A DNA stretch of 64,000 nt from NCBI RefSeq assembly GCF_000269805.1, contig NZ_JH711481.1:1799789-1863788 (forward strand), in the 5' to 3' direction. The position numbers and the translations under genes were made by a program. Shown here piece after piece: positions 34,639 to 54,795 of the stretch. A model generated the notes under the pieces. It searched no databases. It was not told the origin of the DNA and was given only the letters and a program-made list of their open reading frames with translations. Source of the DNA: Actinomyces massiliensis 4401292 (GTDB lineage Bacteria; Actinomycetota; Actinomycetes; Actinomycetales; Actinomycetaceae). Position 1 is the stretch's first letter, and each line of letters begins with the position of its first letter.

Positions 34639-34837
34639 TGTGATCTGTTCCTGATCCGTTCGCGCTCGGGGATGGCGGCGGTGGCCGCGTCGCTGCTCCG
34701 CGTAGCATAGTGAGGCGCACTGGACTGCCTCGGAAGGTCTCGCTCTTTCGCGGGCGAGGACGGCGCGCCGAGATCGGTCCCGATCGCTCAGTCCTGGGCC
34801 TCACAGACCCGGCCCCCGCACGTGAAGGAGCCCCGCC

Positions 34838-44827: not shown

Positions 44828-45159
44828 GGTCCTCCTTGTCCGCCGGGGCTCCTGGCTACGGCGCGAGAGTGGGCGGGGGACGGCTCGTTCGGGACCGCAT
44901 GCCGGTCAGCGGACCGCCCCAGGGGCACCCGGAATTATAACGACGCGGTCTCCGGCTGGTGATGGTGATGTCGCACGGCTGGTCGTCGAATGGACCGGCG
45001 GGCGGGCCGCACTCGGGTCATGTGCGCGAGCCCACGGGTCGGGCGGCTCGGAGCGGGGGCGAGCGCTGGTAGTGTTGACAAGCCGTCGATCGGCCACGGA
45101 TGTGTCATGCCCGGGAGGATCAGCCCCGGTGCTCCGTGCAACGAGAATCAGGAGCCGCA
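44828..45159. promoter_or_regulatory. Divergent promoter region of esterase and rpsO
   Basis: No gene. On the minus strand a consensus TATAAT (44934-44939) lies about 110 bp before the esterase. On the plus strand a perfect TTGACA at 45075-45080 and a TAGTGT at 45070-45075 lie before rpsO; a -10 paired with the former is weak (about GATGTG), so either may be the real element. Confidence 0.45.
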
Positions 45160-45429
45160 GTGTCGATTTCCGCCAAGCGCAAGCAGGAGCTCATCGCCGA
45201 GTACGCCACCCATGAGGGCGACACGGGCTCTCCCGAGGTCCAGGTCGCCGTCCTGTCGGAGCGCATCTCCAACCTCACCGAGCACTTCAAGACTCACACG
45301 CACGACCACCACTCGCGCCGGGGTCTCTACCTGCTCATCGGTAAGCGCCGCCGTCTGCTCGACTACCTCATGCGCGAGGACATCGAGCGCTACCGCTCGC
45401 TGATCTCCCGCCTCGGCATCCGCCGCTGA
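45160..45429 (+). CDS. rpsO: 30S ribosomal protein S15
   Basis: 89 residues, exactly the family length, from GTG 45160 with CAGGAG upstream. [47 protein letters not shown] is the S15 signature. Binds 16S rRNA central domain. Followed by a good hairpin terminator at 45453-45488. Confidence 0.97.
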
Positions 45430-45452
45430 GCGCGCTTCTTGCTTTTACGCAA

Positions 45453-45488
45453 TCGCGTCGGCCCGCCACCATGAGGTGACGGGCCGAC
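45453..45488 (+). terminator. Rho-independent-type terminator after rpsO
   Basis: 16-bp arms with one mismatch (45453-45468 and 45473-45488), four-base loop ATGA, followed by TCGTTTTCTT. The stem starts 24 bp past the rpsO stop. Confidence 0.88.
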
Positions 45489-45511
45489 GCTCGTTTTCTT
45501 CCGCCGATACG

Positions 45512-45566
45512 TCGAGATCGGTCGAGTTCCGGCTTGAGATCGGTCGTACTCCGGCTCGAGATCGGT
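45512..45566 (+). repeat. 22-bp-period array 1 (three GAGATCGGTCG copies)
   Basis: GAGATCGGTCG begins at 45512, 45534 and 45556, exactly 22 bp apart. The spacers of the first two units are also similar (AGTTCCGGCTT, TACTCCGGCTC). It lies between the rpsO terminator and the end of the convergent fucO-like gene. Confidence 0.9.
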
Positions 45567-45584
45567 CGATCGATGGGCCGGCGC

Positions 45585-46736
45585 CTACAGCAGGGAGCGG
45601 TAGAGGGCCTCGATGTCCTCACGGCTCGCCGGACGCGGGTTGCCCGGCGTGCACACGTCGTTGAAGGCGTCCTCGGTCAGGGCCGCAATCCCCGATTCGT
45701 CCACGCCGATCTCGGAGATTCGTGTGGGGTTGCCGAGGTCGGCGGTCAGCGCTGCAACGGCCTCGACGGCGGCGGCGCGGGCATCCGCCAGCGGCATGGT
45801 GCGGGCCTGGGCGACGCCGAAGGCCTCGGCGATGTCCCGGTACTTCTCTCCGGTGAACTCCGCGTTGTAGGCCATGACCGGGGCGAGCAGGATGCCGTTG
45901 GCCAGCCCGTGCGGAGCGCCGTAGCGCCCGCCCAGCGGATGGGCCATGCCGTGCACCAGGCCGAGGCCTACGTTGGAGTAGGCCATACCGTTGATGTAGG
46001 CGGCCAGGCCCATCGCCTCGACGGCGTCGGGGTCGCCGTCGGCGGCCTTGCGCAGATTCCCCGCGATCATCTGGATGGAGCGCAGGCACAGGGCGTCGCT
46101 CAGCTGCCAGGCGCCGGGGGTGATGTAGCCCTCGATGGCGTGCGTCAGGGCGTCCAGTCCGGTGGCCACCTTGAGGGAGCGGGGCATCGCGTCCATGAGA
46201 TCGGGATCGACGACGGCGACCACCGGGATGTCGTGCGGATCGACGCACACGAACTTCCGCTTATTCGCCGTGTCGGTGATGACGTAATTGATCGTGGTCT
46301 CCGACGCGGTCCCGGCGGTGGTGGGCACGCCGATGACGGGCACCCCCGGGTTCTTCGTGGGAGACAGGCCCTCCAGGCTCAGGACGTCCTCGAATTCGGG
46401 GTTGGCGGCGATCACCGAGATGGCCTTGCACGTGTCCTGCGGGGAGCCGCCGCCCAGACCGATGAGGATCTCGGCGCCGGATGCGCGGAAGGCGGCCAGG
46501 CCCGCCTGGACCTTCTCAACGGGAGGATTGGGGGCGACGTCGGAGAAGATCTCCCAGGTGATGCCGGCGGCATCGAGAAGGTCGGTGATGCGCGCGGCCG
46601 TGCCGTTGTCGGCCAGGACCGGGTCGGTGACGACGAATGCCCGGGTCAAGCCGCGGCCTGCGATCTCCTCGGGAATGGAGGAAATCGCGCCACGACCGAA
46701 GTAGCCGGTCTGGTTGAAGATCATGCGGTAGGTCAT
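45585..46736 (-). CDS. fucO: Iron-containing alcohol dehydrogenase, lactaldehyde reductase-like
   Basis: 383 residues from ATG 46736 (AGGAG seven bases upstream), matching FucO at 382-383. MTYRMIFNQTGYFGRGAI, LIGLGGGSPQDTCKAISVI (NAD-binding GGGS), PTTAGTASETTINYVITD and the metal-binding block HAIEGYI ... NVGLGLVHGMAHPLGGRYGAPHGLANGILL with several His ligands place it in group III dehydrogenases. FucO reduces lactaldehyde to 1,2-propanediol; no fucose or rhamnose genes are near, so the substrate is uncertain. Confidence 0.85.
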   Translation of the reverse strand: MTYRMIFNQTGYFGRGAISSIPEEIAGRGLTRAFVVTDPVLADNGTAARITDLLDAAGITWEIFSDVAPNPPVEKVQAGLAAFRASGAEILIGLGGGSPQDTCKAISVIAANPEFEDVLSLEGLSPTKNPGVPVIGVPTTAGTASETTINYVITDTANKRKFVCVDPHDIPVVAVVDPDLMDAMPRSLKVATGLDALTHAIEGYITPGAWQLSDALCLRSIQMIAGNLRKAADGDPDAVEAMGLAAYINGMAYSNVGLGLVHGMAHPLGGRYGAPHGLANGILLAPVMAYNAEFTGEKYRDIAEAFGVAQARTMPLADARAAAVEAVAALTADLGNPTRISEIGVDESGIAALTEDAFNDVCTPGNPRPASREDIEALYRSLL

Positions 46737-47307
46737 GAAGACGCTCCTGGTGGGGGCCGGGCCGGTGCGACCGGCCCGGATGTCTCTGATAGCCCGGAAT
46801 AGCCCGGATGGTTCGGATACGTGCCTGATGCAGCTGACGCAGCTGACACCAACTGGCGTAGCCGGCACGGCTGGCACAGCATGTCCACGATCACACACGG
46901 GCGGGCCCCGCGGGCAGGCCCGAAGGTCCCTGCAGGTCGCTGCAGGACCCTGAGATCAAGGTTGGCCCCGGTGCGCGTCTCATCTCACGCCGGCACGGCG
47001 GTTGCTTCATCCCGAGAACGGCGCCTCCACGGTAGGATCACCGTGCCCGCACGTGTGCGTGTGCCCCTGATTCGTCGGGCCGAACGCATGCCGAGGACCG
47101 GTCGGGGCCGGCGTGTCAGACGCGGCGTCGCCCATCCGGTGCGGGCCCGGGACCCGGGAACAAGCTCCGAACCCGGACGGCGGGAGCCGTCGGTTTTCGG
47201 TGGTGGCCTCCGGAACGGCGCGCCTGTCGCGCGCAGTTGCTCCGTGGGCCTCAATCGAAGACCGCGCTCCGGCCCCAGAGGAAACCTGAGAAAGAGACGC
47301 ATCGCAG
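46737..47307. other. 571-bp gap before pnp, with 9-bp repeats and divergent promoters
   Basis: No convincing gene. The part next to the dehydrogenase holds a 9-bp repeat tract at 46830-46883; a TAGGAT -10-like hexamer near 47034 may serve pnp, leaving a ~270-nt leader. Long leaders of pnp are often targets of autoregulation in other bacteria, but I see no clear conserved stem here. Confidence 0.5.
46830..46883. repeat. 9-bp tandem repeat upstream of fucO-like gene
   Basis: Units GCAGCTGAC, GCAGCTGAC, ACCAACTGG, CGTAGCCGG, CACGGCTGG, CACAGCATG. It is non-coding if the dehydrogenase starts at 46736, although the dehydrogenase frame stays open across it. Confidence 0.75.
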
Positions 47308-49671
47308 ATGTTCATTGACGACCCCGAGGTCACCGCCGCAGAGGCAGTGATCGACAACGGCGCCTTCGGCAAGCGCGTAGTCCGCTTCGAGACCGGACGC
47401 CTTGCCAAGCAGGCCGCCGGAAGCGCCATGGCCTACCTCGACGGTGAGACGGCCATCCTGTCCGCCACCACCGTGGGCAAGCACCCCAAGGACCAGTTCG
47501 ACTTCTTCCCGCTCACTGTCGACGTCGAGGAGCGCCAGTACGCCGCCGGGCGCATCCCCGGCTCCTTCTTCCGCCGCGAGGGCCGTGCCGGAACCTCCGC
47601 CGTCCTCGCCTGTCGGCTCATCGACCGTCCGCTGCGCCCCTCCTTCGTCAAGGGGCTGCGCAACGAGGTCCAGGTCGTCGAGACGATCATGGCCATCGAC
47701 CCCGACGACGCCTACGACGTCCTGGCCATCAATGCGGCCTCCATGTCCACCCAGATCGCGGGCCTGCCCTTCGCCGGCCCGGTTGCGGGCACCCGCCTGG
47801 CCCTCATCGACGGCCAGTGGGTGGCCTTCCCCCGCTACTCCGAGCTCGAGCGCGCCACCTTCAACATGGTGGTGGCGGGCCGCGTCCTGGAGGACGGCGA
47901 CGTCGCCATCATGATGGTCGAGGCAGGGGCCACCGAGAGCGCCTGGGATCTGATCGCCGCCGGCGCCACGGCCCCCACCGAGGCCGTCGTCGCCGAGGCC
48001 CTTGAAGTCGCCAAGCCCCACATCAAGGCCCTGTGCGAGGCCCAGATGGAGGTCGCCAAGCACGCCTCCAAGCCCACCGCCGAGTTCCCGCTCTATCTCG
48101 ATTACACCGATGAGCAGTACGACGCCGTCGAGAAGGCCGCTCAGGCCCATGATCTGGCCGGCGCCATCGCCACCGAGGGCAAGCAGGACCGCGATCTGGC
48201 CATTGGTGCCGTGCGCGACGCGGTCCTCGCCGACCTGGCCGAGCAGTTCAGTTCCGAGGAGGACGTCAAGGCGCTCAAGGCCGCCTTCAAGTCCGTTACC
48301 AAGAAGCTCGTGCGCCACCGCACCCTCACCGAGGACGTGCGCATGGACGGCCGCGGCCCGAAGGACATCCGCACGCTGGCTGCCGAGGTCGAGGTCCTGC
48401 CCCGCGTTCACGGCTCGGCCATCTTCGAGCGCGGCGAGACCCAGATCCTGGGCGTGACCACCCTCAACATGCTGCGCATGGAGCAGCAGATCGACGATCT
48501 CTCGCCGATCACGCACAAGCGCTACATGCACCAGTACGTCTTCCCGCCCTTCTCCACCGGTGAGACCGGCCGCGTGGGCGCGCCCAAGCGCCGTGAGATC
48601 GGCCATGGGGCGCTGGCTGAGCGCGCGCTCGTGCCCGTCCTGCCCAGCCGCGACGACTTTCCCTACGCCATCCGCCAGGTCTCCGAGGCGCTCGGCTCCA
48701 ACGGCTCGACGTCGATGGGTTCGGTCTGCGCCTCCACGCTGTCCCTGCTCAACGCGGGGGTGCCGCTGCGCGCCCCGGTGGCGGGCATCGCCATGGGGCT
48801 CATGCACGAGGAGATCGACGGCGAGACCAGGTGGGCCACGCTGACCGACATCCTCGGGTCCGAGGACGCCTTCGGCGACATGGACTTCAAGGTCGCCGGC
48901 ACCCGTGATTTCATCACGGCCCTCCAGCTGGACACCAAGCTCGACGGCCTGCCCTCGGAGGTGCTCGCCGGTGCGCTGGGTCAGGCCCGCGACGCCCGCG
49001 TCTTCATCCTCGACGTGCTGGCCCAGGCCATTGACGGCCCTGACGAGATGGCCCCGACCGCCCCGCGCGTCCTGTCCGTGCGCATTCCGGTCGACAAGAT
49101 CGGCGAGGTCATCGGCCCCAAGGGCAAGATGATCAACCAGATCCAGGAGGACACCGGCGCGGACCTGACCGTGGAGGACGACGGCACCGTCTACATCGGC
49201 GCCTCCGACGGCCCCTCGGCCGAGGCCGCCCGCGACGCCGTCAACGCGATCGCCAACCCGCAGATGCCCGAGATCGGTGAGCGCTTCGTCGGAACCGTGG
49301 TCAAGACCACGACCTTCGGCGCCTTCGTCTCCCTGACTCCGGGCAAGGACGGTCTGCTGCACGTCTCGCAGATCCGCCGCCTGGTGGGTGGCAAGCGCGT
49401 GGAGAACGTCGAGGACGTCCTGAACGTGGGCGACAAGGTTCAGGTCGAGCTCGCCGAGATCGATCAGCGCGGCAAGCTGAGCCTGCACGCCGTCCTGTCC
49501 GACGAGCAGTTGGCCGCCGAGGCGGAGAACAAGGCCGCACATGCCGGTGGCGGTGAGCGCCGCGAGCGCCGCCCGCGCCGGGAGCGCTCCGAGGGCGAGG
49601 GCGAGCGTCGTGAGCGCCGCCCGCGTCGGCGCCGCACCCGCACGGTCGAGTCCTCCTCCGAGGAGGAGTGA
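47308..49671 (+). CDS. pnp: Polyribonucleotide nucleotidyltransferase (PNPase)
   Basis: 787 residues. Two RNase PH domains (first with [32 protein letters not shown]; second with [18 protein letters not shown] and [35 protein letters not shown]), a KH domain ([26 protein letters not shown]) and an S1 domain ([28 protein letters not shown]). The extra ~45-residue Arg/Glu-rich tail ([28 protein letters not shown]) is common in actinobacteria. Degrades RNA 3' to 5' with phosphate. Strong hairpin follows at 49714. Confidence 0.97.
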
Positions 49672-49713
49672 GCGGCACGCGGTCGCGCACTGACTGGTAA
49701 CTGACTGACATCG

Positions 49714-49753
49714 GCCGGGGGCCGGTTCGCCGCGCGGCGGACCGGCCCCCGGC
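49714..49753 (+). terminator. Hairpin terminator after pnp
   Basis: 18-bp arms (49714-49731 and 49736-49753) with a single mismatch and GCGC loop, 43 bp past the stop. Extremely GC-rich; no T-run. Confidence 0.83.
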
Positions 49754-49789
49754 TTCACCCTGCTCACCCTGCTCACCCCGCTCACCCCG
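49754..49789 (+). repeat. 9-bp tandem repeat after pnp terminator
   Basis: Four units, TTCACCCTG, CTCACCCTG, CTCACCCCG, CTCACCCCG, fill the space between the pnp hairpin and the 22-bp-period array 2. Non-coding. Confidence 0.85.
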
Positions 49790-49793
49790 CGCC

Positions 49794-49848
49794 GAGATCG
49801 GTCGTAACCCGTGTCGAGATCGGTCCGGTTCCGCGTCGAAATCGGTCC
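49794..49848 (+). repeat. 22-bp-period array 2 (GAGATCGGTC copies)
   Basis: GAGATCGGTCG at 49794, GAGATCGGTCC at 49816 and GAAATCGGTCC at 49838, each 22 bp apart. It lies about 100 bp upstream of pepR, in the same orientation as array 1. Confidence 0.88.
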
Positions 49849-49936
49849 TTTCTCCGCATATGCGACGGCGGGCAACACCCGCTACGCCATCGGCGAGGAG
49901 ATCCCGTCCGGTGGACGAGGCCATCCCCGTGCCCGT

Positions 49937-49942
49937 TAGGCT
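49937..49942 (+). promoter_or_regulatory. -10 hexamer of pepR (leaderless)
   Basis: TAGGCT, six bases (CGCCCA), then GTG 49949. No Shine-Dalgarno fits at this distance other than the hexamer itself. Confidence 0.6.
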
Positions 49943-49948
49943 CGCCCA

Positions 49949-51328
49949 GTGACCAACCCATCCTCCTCAACCGACAGTTCCTCCGGGACGAGCGCCACCA
50001 GTTACTCGGAGGTCGATCTCGCACGCGGTACTGCCGGCGCTCCCGGCACTGAGCTGCACCTGACCGACGACGGCGCCACTCTGCGCCGTTCGATCCTGCC
50101 CGGCGGGGTGCGCGTCATCACCGAGTCCGTGCCCGGGCTGCGCTCGACGAGCCTGGGCATGTGGTTCGGAGTCGGGTCCCGGGACGAGGTCGCGGGCCAG
50201 GAGGGCTCGACCCATTTCCTCGAGCACCTCATGTTCAAGGGCACCGCCACTCGCTCGGCCCGTGAGATCGCCGAGGCATTCGACTTCATCGGCGGGGAGT
50301 CCAACGCCGCCACCTCCAAGGAGCACACCTCCTACTACGCGCGCGTGCAGGGGGCGGACGCCATGGAGGCCCTCGACGTCCTGACCGACATGGTGACCTC
50401 CTCCTCGCTCGACCCCGCGGAGGTCGAGACCGAGCGCGGCGTCATCGTCTCCGAGCTGGCGGACGCCGCGGACGATCCCGTCGACGTCGCCCAGGAGGCC
50501 TTCGCCCGCGCCGCCTTCGGCGATGACACCCCGCTGGGCAGGCCGATCGGCGGTACTTACGAGACCGTTACCGCCGTGCCGCGCGAGGCGGTGTGGGAGC
50601 ACTATCAGCGGACCTACGCCTCCGACTCCCTGGTCGTGGCCGTGGCCGGAGCCGTCGACCACGACCAGGTCGTCGAGCGGGTCACCGCCGATCTCGCCGC
50701 CGCCGGCTGGGACACCACGGCTGCCGTTCCGCCGCGCCCGCGCCGTTTCGAGACCGAGCCGGACGCCGACCTGACCGTCCACGATGTGCGCATTGAGCGG
50801 GACTGCGAGCAATCCCACGTCTACCTGACCTGCCAGGGCATCCCTGTGCGCGATGAGCGACGCTGGGCCATGAGCGTGCTCACCACGATCCTCGGCGGCG
50901 GCATGTCCTCGCGCCTGTTCCAGGAGGTCCGCGAGAAGCGGGGACTGGCCTACACGACCTACGCCTTCGACGCCTCCTACGCCGGCGCGGGAGCACTGGG
51001 GCTGTACGCCGGTTGCGCCCCGGAGGCCGTGGACGAGGTGTGCGCCGTCATGGTCGGCGAGTTCGAGAGGCTGGCCGCCGACGGCGTCACCGACCGTGAG
51101 CTCGCCCGCGTCCGCGGGCAGATCCGCGGCGCCATGGTGCTGGGCGGGGAGGACTCGCTGGCCCGCATGGGGCGCCTGGGGCGCGGTGAGGTCGTCACCG
51201 GGCGGCTGCGCAGTATGGAGGAGAACCTGCGCCTGCTGGATGCCGTCACCGGTGAGGAGGTGCGTGAACTCGCCGAGTGGCTCGTGTCGCAGGAGCGCGC
51301 CCGGGTCCTGGTGGGGCCGCCGGTCTGA
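49949..51328 (+). CDS. pepR: M16 family zinc metallopeptidase (PepR/processing-peptidase-like)
   Basis: 459 residues. GVGSRDEVAGQEGSTHFLEHLMFKGTATRSA carries the inverted zinc motif HFLEH, with the third ligand Glu in the downstream ETERGVIVSELADAADDP block. The C-terminal half-domain contains LTTILGGGMSSRLFQEVREKRGLAY, the R/Y substrate-binding pair of the family. In actinobacteria pepR regularly lies between pnp and dapB, as here. Cytosolic; the physiological substrate is not known. Ser/Thr-rich N-terminal ~20 residues. Flanked by 22-bp-period arrays on both sides. Confidence 0.92.
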   Translation: MTNPSSSTDSSSGTSATSYSEVDLARGTAGAPGTELHLTDDGATLRRSILPGGVRVITESVPGLRSTSLGMWFGVGSRDEVAGQEGSTHFLEHLMFKGTATRSAREIAEAFDFIGGESNAATSKEHTSYYARVQGADAMEALDVLTDMVTSSSLDPAEVETERGVIVSELADAADDPVDVAQEAFARAAFGDDTPLGRPIGGTYETVTAVPREAVWEHYQRTYASDSLVVAVAGAVDHDQVVERVTADLAAAGWDTTAAVPPRPRRFETEPDADLTVHDVRIERDCEQSHVYLTCQGIPVRDERRWAMSVLTTILGGGMSSRLFQEVREKRGLAYTTYAFDASYAGAGALGLYAGCAPEAVDEVCAVMVGEFERLAADGVTDRELARVRGQIRGAMVLGGEDSLARMGRLGRGEVVTGRLRSMEENLRLLDAVTGEEVRELAEWLVSQERARVLVGPPV

Positions 51329-51337
51329 GAGGCGCTG

Positions 51338-51391
51338 GACCGATCTCGAGCCGGAGTGCGACCGATCTCGAGGCGGAAGCGGACCGATCTC
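51338..51391 (-). repeat. 22-bp-period array 3 (inverted orientation)
   Basis: GACCGATCTC begins at 51338, 51360 and 51382, exactly 22 bp apart; this is the reverse complement of the core in arrays 1 and 2. On the minus strand the first two units read GAGATCGGTC plus CGCTTCCGCCTC and GCACTCCGGCTC. It fills most of the pepR-dapB gap. Confidence 0.9.
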
Positions 51392-51451
51392 GGCGGGAGG
51401 GGCGCGAGGGGAGAGGCCTCAACCCGTTCAGCACCCCCGGAACCGATCATC

Positions 51452-51457
51452 TAGGCT
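51452..51457 (+). promoter_or_regulatory. -10 hexamer of dapB (leaderless)
   Basis: TAGGCT, six bases (GATGGC), then ATG 51464, so the predicted transcription start coincides with the A of the start codon. Confidence 0.62.
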
Positions 51458-51463
51458 GATGGC

Positions 51464-52216
51464 ATGACGATTCGCGTTGCTGTCGTAGGCGCCGCCGGGC
51501 GCATGGGATCCACCGTCTGCCAGGCCGTCGAGGAGGCCGAGGGCCTTGAGCTCGTCGCCCGCCTCGATGTCGGCGTCGAGATCACCCTCGAGCACCTCAA
51601 CGGCGCCGACGTCGCCGTGGACTTCACCGTTCCCGACGTCACCGAGGCCAATGTTCACGCCCTCATCGCCGCCGGTGTGAACGTCGTCGTCGGCACCACC
51701 GGATGGACCGAGGAGTCCTACGCGCGGGTCCGCGAGCATCTCGCCGAGCCCGATGCCGCCGGCCGCAGCGTTCTCATCGCCCCCAACTTCGCTCTCTCGG
51801 CGGTCCTGGCCATGGCCTTTGCGGCCAAGGCCGCCCAGTACTTCGAGTCCGCCGAGGTCATCGAGCTCCATCACCCCGGCAAGGTGGACGCCCCTTCGGG
51901 CACCGCCATCGCCACCGCCAAGGGCATCGCGGAGGCGCGCGACCGCGCCGGCCTGCCCGCCATGCCGGATGCGACCGCGTCGGATCCCGGCGGCGCCCGG
52001 GGCGCGGTCGTCGATGGCGTTCATGTGCATGCCGTTCGCCTGCGCGGGCTGACCGCCCACGAGGAGGTGGTCCTCGGCAATCCCGGCGAGCAGTTGACGA
52101 TCCGCACCGATTCCTTCGACCGCGCCTCCTTCATGCCCGGCGTCGTCCTCGCCGTCCGCGAGGTCGGCGGGCACCCGGGACTCACCGTGGGGCTGGATCG
52201 GCTTCTCGGCATCTGA
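51464..52216 (+). CDS. dapB: 4-hydroxy-tetrahydrodipicolinate reductase
   Basis: 250 residues. VAVVGAAGRMGSTVC is the nucleotide-binding fold; VGTTGWT and the catalytic ELHHPGKVDAPSGTA block with His-His and Lys are diagnostic of DapB. Uses NAD(P)H to reduce the product of dapA in the lysine/diaminopimelate pathway, which supplies peptidoglycan. dapA lies 1 kb downstream, separated by a GNAT gene on the other strand. Confidence 0.96.
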   Translation: MTIRVAVVGAAGRMGSTVCQAVEEAEGLELVARLDVGVEITLEHLNGADVAVDFTVPDVTEANVHALIAAGVNVVVGTTGWTEESYARVREHLAEPDAAGRSVLIAPNFALSAVLAMAFAAKAAQYFESAEVIELHHPGKVDAPSGTAIATAKGIAEARDRAGLPAMPDATASDPGGARGAVVDGVHVHAVRLRGLTAHEEVVLGNPGEQLTIRTDSFDRASFMPGVVLAVREVGGHPGLTVGLDRLLGI

Positions 52217-54726: not shown

Positions 54727-54795
54727 ACGCCCTCGTCGAGATCGACTTCTTCGGACGAGATCGACGGTGCCACCGCCGCTCCCGTTCCATCATGT

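Follow-up and report, generated by a model that had tools for sequence, protein, structure and literature searches.

Intergenic arrays of a 22-bp unit as candidate arms of an interspersed element family in Actinomyces

The 64,000-nucleotide stretch of Actinomyces massiliensis 4401292 analysed here (contig NZ_JH711481.1, positions 1,799,789 to 1,863,788; hereafter the window) carries three short arrays of a 22-bp repeat unit in the spacers around rpsO, pnp, an M16 peptidase gene (pepR) and dapB (Table 1). The contig measures 1.98 Mb and belongs to a genome of 3.37 Mb in 13 contigs; the families of the array-flanking genes were assigned via Pfam (Ribosomal_S15, Fe-ADH and M16 peptidase among them). 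A preliminary description, made from the letters alone, had reported three intergenic arrays of three identical cores each, with a 22-bp period and the third array inverted. This layout was borne out with small corrections: the first core begins at 45514, since position 45512 takes in a preceding TC, eight of the nine cores are exact while the third core of array 2 is a variant, and the extra lone core reported near 34771 is present but starts at 34770. Every core spacing within the arrays equals exactly 22 bp, as established by reading and by pattern search. Allowing at most one mismatch, the window holds 23 core matches against 10.7 expected, a number attained in none of 100 shuffles.

Table 1. 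Arrays and lone core of the 22-bp repeat in the window (positions counted from the first letter of the stretch).
Feature	Position	Strand	Description
Array 1	45514..45567	+	Three GAGATCGGTC cores at 45514, 45536 and 45558; spacer between two convergent genes, rpsO (+) and that of an iron-containing alcohol dehydrogenase (-)
Array 2	49794..49847	+	Cores at 49794, 49816 and 49838, the third being GAAATCGGTC; spacer between pnp and the M16 peptidase gene
Array 3	51338..51391	-	Cores at 51338, 51360 and 51382; spacer between the M16 peptidase gene and dapB
Lone GAGATCGGTC core	34770..34779	+	5' of an open frame (by eye); lacks a 22-bp partner; uncertain member

Hairpin terminators and promoters had also been described beside the arrays. 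GC-rich inverted repeats do precede arrays 1 and 2 by eye, but a consensus scan of positions 45300-51600 returned no promoter-like site and three terminator-like sites, none of which adjoins an array. Upstream of pnp, an Actino-pnp leader RNA was matched at 47189-47266 with 44.7 bits, slightly under the Rfam gathering score of 47.7.

Core pairs 22 bp apart, with at most two mismatches, number 707 in the whole genome (357 + 350), against none (0 + 0) for the reversed-pattern control; counts no higher than those of shuffled sequence, named beforehand as a refuting outcome, did not occur. A sample of 464 kb, made up of the window and twenty 20-kb stretches (hereafter the own sample), contains 40 arrays of 2 to 8 units each, or 37 once three weak-core arrays are dropped (L100:4548, L101:7272 and L115:15029, excluded from the placement and unit-profile counts). 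Exactly three copies per array is thus true of the window but not of the sample. The 707 pairs, together with 113 units per 37 arrays, lead to an estimate of about 230 arrays in the genome. Same-strand core spacings of up to 120 bp in the own sample fall on 22 (105 pairs), 44 (69), 66 (38), 88 (17) and 110 bp (6), with six other distances occurring once each. A chance origin is ruled out by the window shuffles, the contrast between 707 and 0 pairs and this spacing spectrum.

Across the 113 complete units there is very little variation at positions 1-10 (GAGATCGGTC), 15-18 (TCCG in most units) and 22 (C); either G or C stands at position 11, and positions 12-14 and 19-21 are variable. Because the block centres lie 11 bp apart, core and TCCG block would share one side of the helix, which fits the earlier proposal of protein molecules seated on one DNA face, although no such protein was found. 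The first four spacer bases occur as 21 types where 53.6 are expected under positional independence, and likeness is greater between spacers separated by two units (8.52 of 12 positions) than between neighbours (7.28) or random pairs (7.52), revealing a 44-bp superperiod. A CRISPR-like (clustered regularly interspaced short palindromic repeats) array was rejected: there are 66 distinct 12-nt spacers among the 113, built of few 4-nt segments, and cas genes were not searched for.

Genes in the sample stretches were called by a simple codon-usage script. Thirty-two of the 37 arrays lie inside called intergenic spacers of at least 40 bp, the other five being situated at stretch ends or doubtful gene starts. 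The 24 array-holding spacers comprise 16 co-directional, 8 convergent and no divergent ones, compared with ~6.4 divergent spacers expected by length (binomial p = 0.0008); this count omits those five arrays and the weak two-unit array L100:4548, the sole array in a divergent spacer. Within the co-directional spacers, arrays show no preference for the 3' end over the following start (8 of 16 are nearer the former).

The lack of divergent spacers, together with the eight convergent ones, is consistent with arrays that act in RNA, as 3'-end hairpins or long stems terminating or protecting transcripts. Two 2+2-unit palindromes of the A. massiliensis genome also fold strongly (three folds, z -7.7, -11.0 and -12.6), and 10 of the 11 GAGACC-type palindromes from related species show a perfect match between their arms, those with variant spacers among them; ten of the loci had been preselected as facing pairs. 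Six single arrays, however, folded on both strands (12 folds), do no better than shuffles (z -0.98 to +1.61), and RNA folding of single arrays was rejected as an explanation. The arms of seven GAGATC-type palindromes differ on average by 6.71 of 33 bases, no better than the 5.62 between palindromes; one pair differs by a single base, and complementarity is not kept in the other six. The direction of arrays relative to adjoining genes goes either way, and no Rfam family was matched over the arrays in window positions 45000-52000 or, at gathering scores, over arrays and modules in seven stretches of the own genome. In the GAGATC type it is mostly the core sequence rather than base pairing that is conserved, and this is the main argument for a DNA-binding protein over an RNA structure. 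We accordingly regard action in RNA as improbable, and the earlier suggestion of a transcript-end signal retains the support of position but not that of folding or complementarity.

The orientation of neighbouring arrays provides a different kind of evidence. Those less than 1 kb apart face each other in 10 of 10 cases in the unselected own sample, and the same holds for 25 of 25 in a wider set, some stretches of which had been picked for their palindromes. Facing arrays of the own sample enclose centres of 4 to 652 bp, an anatomy of the type found in miniature inverted-repeat transposable elements (MITEs), with terminal inverted repeats round a non-coding centre; solitary arrays, those of the window included, have no such inverted terminal pair. 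Between the arms of the ten own-sample pairs lie a homologous module of ~220 bp (six pairs), 4-5 bp of DNA (two pairs) or other repeats (two pairs). The module is non-coding, has the consensus ends GGTGTTGCACA and TGTGCAACACC and contains an inner inverted repeat, CTCCCATGTGC. It has 40 matches in the own genome, 23 of them full-length and one over 185 of 221 bp, with further matches in the genus genome G013, and 28 of 30 loci fetched with the module have arrays. Partial matches to the module middle (positions ~87-186, around the CTCCCATGTGC repeat) were seen at G000 C1:109773, C3:393769, C1:1093388 and elsewhere, and the two such loci that were read (L147 and L148) have no array close by; these matches perhaps represent a further dispersed palindrome nested in the module.

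Composite elements recur as well. Twelve of the 30 module loci contain a 108-bp segment, always on one side of the module and in one relative direction, and in nine of these 12 a two-unit array separates it from the module. The segment of locus L142 translates to TAADLLLADGSEARHVAFTPELVVRASTSDRSG followed by a stop, and a complete LacI-family gene at L123:2044-3078 (Pfam LacI and Peripla_BP) is 91% identical to the segment over 101 bp at its 3' end. This gene adjoins a composite element, 46 bp outside that element's array, and it is the likely donor of the segment. Read most simply, an element acquired the neighbouring gene end and the composite was then copied elsewhere, although the direction of copying is inferred. 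The recurrence of composites carrying the LacI gene end is the best evidence that the arrays are part of spreading units.

Two further repeat families were encountered in the same material. One has two CGAGRTCGAC cores per arm, 19 bp apart (window positions 54737-54765 and, among other stretches of the own genome, L100:2146-2212 and L102:16915-16981), and its arms frequently face each other around GGTGCCACC to form 67-bp palindromes; 21 half-arms were counted in the own sample. The other consists of CGGTCGTAC arrays with a 20-bp period (L101:7516-7668, L034, L051, L071, L074, L083 and L093), found in loci of A. massiliensis, A. israelii and A. gerencseriae and facing each other in L101 and L074. 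In genome G023, two adjoining 20-bp-period arrays with a CGGTTCG-type core lie on opposite strands (L161, 14726-14957, according to tandem-repeats-finder consensus units).

Beyond the species, a named scan for the exact core pair matched at least 64 stretches, the organisms among the matches listed being A. israelii, A. gerencseriae and A. glycerinitolerans. The GAGATCGGTC pair (at most two mismatches) is present in 22 of 49 genus genomes, that of A. massiliensis counted. A generic pattern of three GAGNNCGGT at 22 bp was found, with at most one mismatch, in 18 of the 49, nine of which have at least ten matches; absence of the periodicity from relatives, the other outcome named at the outset as adverse, was therefore not observed. 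Elsewhere in the family the pattern matched once, in one of 164 genomes, and this is at noise level because the reversed control matched four times, in three of those genomes. Without mismatch it was absent from 395 other genomes sampled from the phylum, where the control matched once. The arrays are thus nearly restricted to the genus Actinomyces. A phage or plasmid origin was rejected, since a whole element (L104:2574-3288) gave no blastn match in 50,697 phage and 72,556 plasmid records, and no exact core pair was found in viral contigs.

Within the genus the core is species-specific at the constant 22-bp period: GAGATC in A. massiliensis, G009 and G013, GAGACC in G006, G008 and G016, GAGTTC in G024, GAGGTC in G023 and GAGAAC in G033. 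The pnp-pepR spacer, which holds array 2 in the window, was read in 30 of the 49 genomes. That of G032 contains a 22-bp array on the other strand with the core GAAACCGGC, and most of the remaining genomes show no array with the motifs tried. Arrays of a 23-bp period (GAGGTCGGTAGATCTGACGTAC and similar) were seen in this spacer in G023 (L201) and G027 (L211), and related copies in G010 and G041. Because other cores and periods fill the same spacer, counts based on the generic pattern may understate the class.

Comparison with relatives covered window arrays 2 and 3, which flank the peptidase gene. The best match to the pnp-dapB locus, in G013, has 85% identity over 2.4 kb; there arrays 2 and 3 both keep their place, direction and three units, with many spacer letters changed. 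In G009 array 2 likewise keeps its place and direction, with two units and other spacers, and no counterpart of array 3 was found within 250 bp after the peptidase gene. One further site has four units in A. massiliensis and G009 and a single core in G013, and the array L104:3191-3288 has no counterpart in G013 or G009, synteny breaking nearby. At three sites compared in G006, G008 and G016, the array takes the form of a palindrome, of direct units or of a palindrome with another spacer in both arms. Several sites are therefore kept across species while their units change.

Such variation in unit number at orthologous sites, along with the few spacer types and the 44-bp alternation, might be taken to indicate passive minisatellites: short sequences that slippage multiplies and gene conversion keeps alike, no binding protein or mobiliser being involved. 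Slippage, however, leaves the facing pairs and the recurrent LacI-end composite unexplained, as it does the persistence of two fixed blocks beside varying neighbours, and we judge this explanation to be the least probable of those weighed here.

More weight attaches to a housekeeping binding function, the main rival of a mobile-end reading. The arrays would then be maintained sites of a cellular DNA-organising or regulatory protein (nucleoid or chromosome-domain type). Core and protein would have evolved together from species to species, and dispersal would be a secondary matter. Such a function would suit the near-invariance of core and TCCG block while the remaining spacer positions turn over, the array positions common to A. 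massiliensis and G013 or G009, and the occupation of the pnp-pepR spacer by different cores and periods in G023, G027, G010, G041 and G032. It would also suit the uneven distribution along the genome. A subset pattern gave 95 matches, hand-collapsed to 74 loci, of which 61 lie on contig C1 (30.8 per Mb), 2 on C2 (2.7 per Mb) and 11 on C3 (17.5 per Mb; p = 4e-5), with no match on the ten smallest contigs (~15 kb in total). Loci along C1 are likewise uneven (Kolmogorov-Smirnov p = 0.0025) and become sparse beyond ~1.5 Mb. In contrast, the generic pattern is without match in 31 of the 49 genus genomes, which is odd for a core function even allowing for cores that the pattern may miss. Composites of module and gene end also recur alongside the arrays, and G013 retains a single core where A. 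massiliensis and G009 have four units. The 250-kb bin that holds dnaA, at 565 kb of C1, has only three loci, and GC skew, as computed from the samples, points to no origin at that place; for these reasons no origin-centred gradient is claimed. A maintained binding function is thus possible but doubtful. An Actinomyces-1 small RNA (99.4 bits) was noted at L105:14139-14247, within an array-rich stretch.

The explanation that we favour, and consider fairly probable, is that the arrays are the ends (arms) of a genus-specific, non-autonomous, interspersed element family of Actinomyces resembling MITEs or repetitive extragenic palindromes (REPs). It is built on the unit and its exact period, the facing orientation, the intergenic placement, the recurrent composites including a gene end, and the species-specific cores, all of which are observed. 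Each arm would be a head-to-tail array of the 22-bp unit, with the core CGAGATCGGTC followed one helical turn on by the TCCG block, and arms would occur singly or as facing pairs, the centre of a pair measuring from 4 bp to several hundred bp. The unit may be what a sequence-specific DNA-binding protein recognises; that protein would most likely be a recombinase or transposase provided in trans, its molecules lining up side by side on one DNA face. Composites would be copied from place to place, unit number and spacers would turn over by slippage, unequal recombination and gene conversion, and solitary arrays such as those of the window may be solo ends or elements that have lost their partner. 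Among the possibilities raised in the preliminary description, that of an interspersed repeat has held up, given the hundreds of pairs genome-wide, the dispersed composites and the near restriction to the genus. Mobile ends and a cellular binding function are also compatible with each other, as an old repeat can be co-opted as a binding site.

Several observations weigh against the arrays being mobile ends. Facing orientation is not universal: module-fetched loci contain 20 facing and 4 same-way neighbouring pairs (4 of 24), and a mixed set comprises 65 facing pairs, 9 same-way pairs and one back to back. The arms of one facing pair are no closer in their spacers than swapped arms, the observed likeness being attained in 260 of 2000 swaps in the own sample and 1778 of 2000 at the module loci; homogenised arms, an earlier impression that came from a genome-mixing control, were rejected by this own-genome test. 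Target-site duplications were sought around 11 palindromes as direct repeats of 2, 3, 4, 5, 8 and 9 bp, and frequencies were near control, the largest excess being 0.36 versus 0.26 at 3 bp, with long-centre elements outside the test. None of the ten open reading frames from 8 of the 17 centres of at least 600 bp encodes a transposase (five are ordinary genes and five have no family match), the rest of the genome lying outside this search. Y1 transposases (PF01797), the type associated with REPs (RAYTs), were found in none of the 49 genus genomes; the positive control matches 5 of 14 known genomes. Furthermore, all three sites compared in G006, G008 and G016 are occupied, indicating that sites can be old, both compared window sites are occupied in G013 with recent movement not seen, and no clean empty site appeared among those compared between A. 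massiliensis, G013 and G009.

A bolder and distinctly speculative extension would join these strands into a fast-evolving Actinomyces system, in which arrays with a phase of some two helical turns are read by a DNA-binding protein, either a recombinase or a chromosome protein, that co-evolves with the core in each species (GAGATC, GAGACC, GAGTTC, GAGGTC or GAGAAC). Facing arrays might then copy the DNA that they enclose, even the ends of host genes, and the sister families of 19-, 20- and 23-bp period might use related machinery. Such a system would be the bacterial equivalent of gene-capturing foldback elements, or would mark chromosome domains with machinery derived from such an equivalent. 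For a genus of bacteria that live in the human mouth, the arrays are a repeat family of large size, and they preserve a readable record of unit turnover at fixed sites. They are probably also a bacterial example of array-ended elements that carry and multiply the end of a gene, and they provide, as biotinylated arrays, a direct handle on the protein that would read them.

No earlier account of these Actinomyces arrays was found among the open-licence papers listed. The BrickBuilt MITE of Porphyromonas gingivalis is intergenic and built of a tandem 23-nt unit, with 0 to 6 units per element and 19 copies in one strain, its single array being flanked by a leader and by a tail with short inverted ends (PMC4596501). 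Like the Actinomyces arrays, it combines conserved and variable positions within the unit and has no transposase remnant of its own (PMC4596501). The Actinomyces unit, by contrast, measures 22 bp, no common leader or tail is found in the 37 arrays, and the arrays form facing arms, are far more numerous and flank varied centres. REPs and the hairpin-capable inverted doublets that they form (REPINs), associated with RAYTs, are short extragenic repeats falling into several distinct groups (PMC3116915). The Actinomyces repeats are similarly short, extragenic, numerous (707 pairs) and divided into several groups, and they too include inverted doublets that can form hairpins, but their arms are head-to-tail arrays, GAGATCGGTC is not self-complementary and single arrays show no excess folding; identity with a REPIN-RAYT system was rejected on the absence of the Y1 transposase from the genus genomes. 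The TAACTGA direct repeats of Beggiatoaceae resemble the Actinomyces arrays in forming 169 intergenic sets of 2 to 6 copies in one genome, in their patchy distribution and in having a proposed binding protein (PMC4679880). They are 7-nt repeats situated mostly just upstream of start codons and proposed to act in translation (PMC4679880), whereas the Actinomyces unit of 22 bp avoids divergent spacers and forms facing pairs. Finally, the Foldback and Galileo-type transposons of Drosophila are eukaryotic and employ a P-element-type transposase, and their likeness to the Actinomyces arrays is one of anatomy only (PMC3573991).

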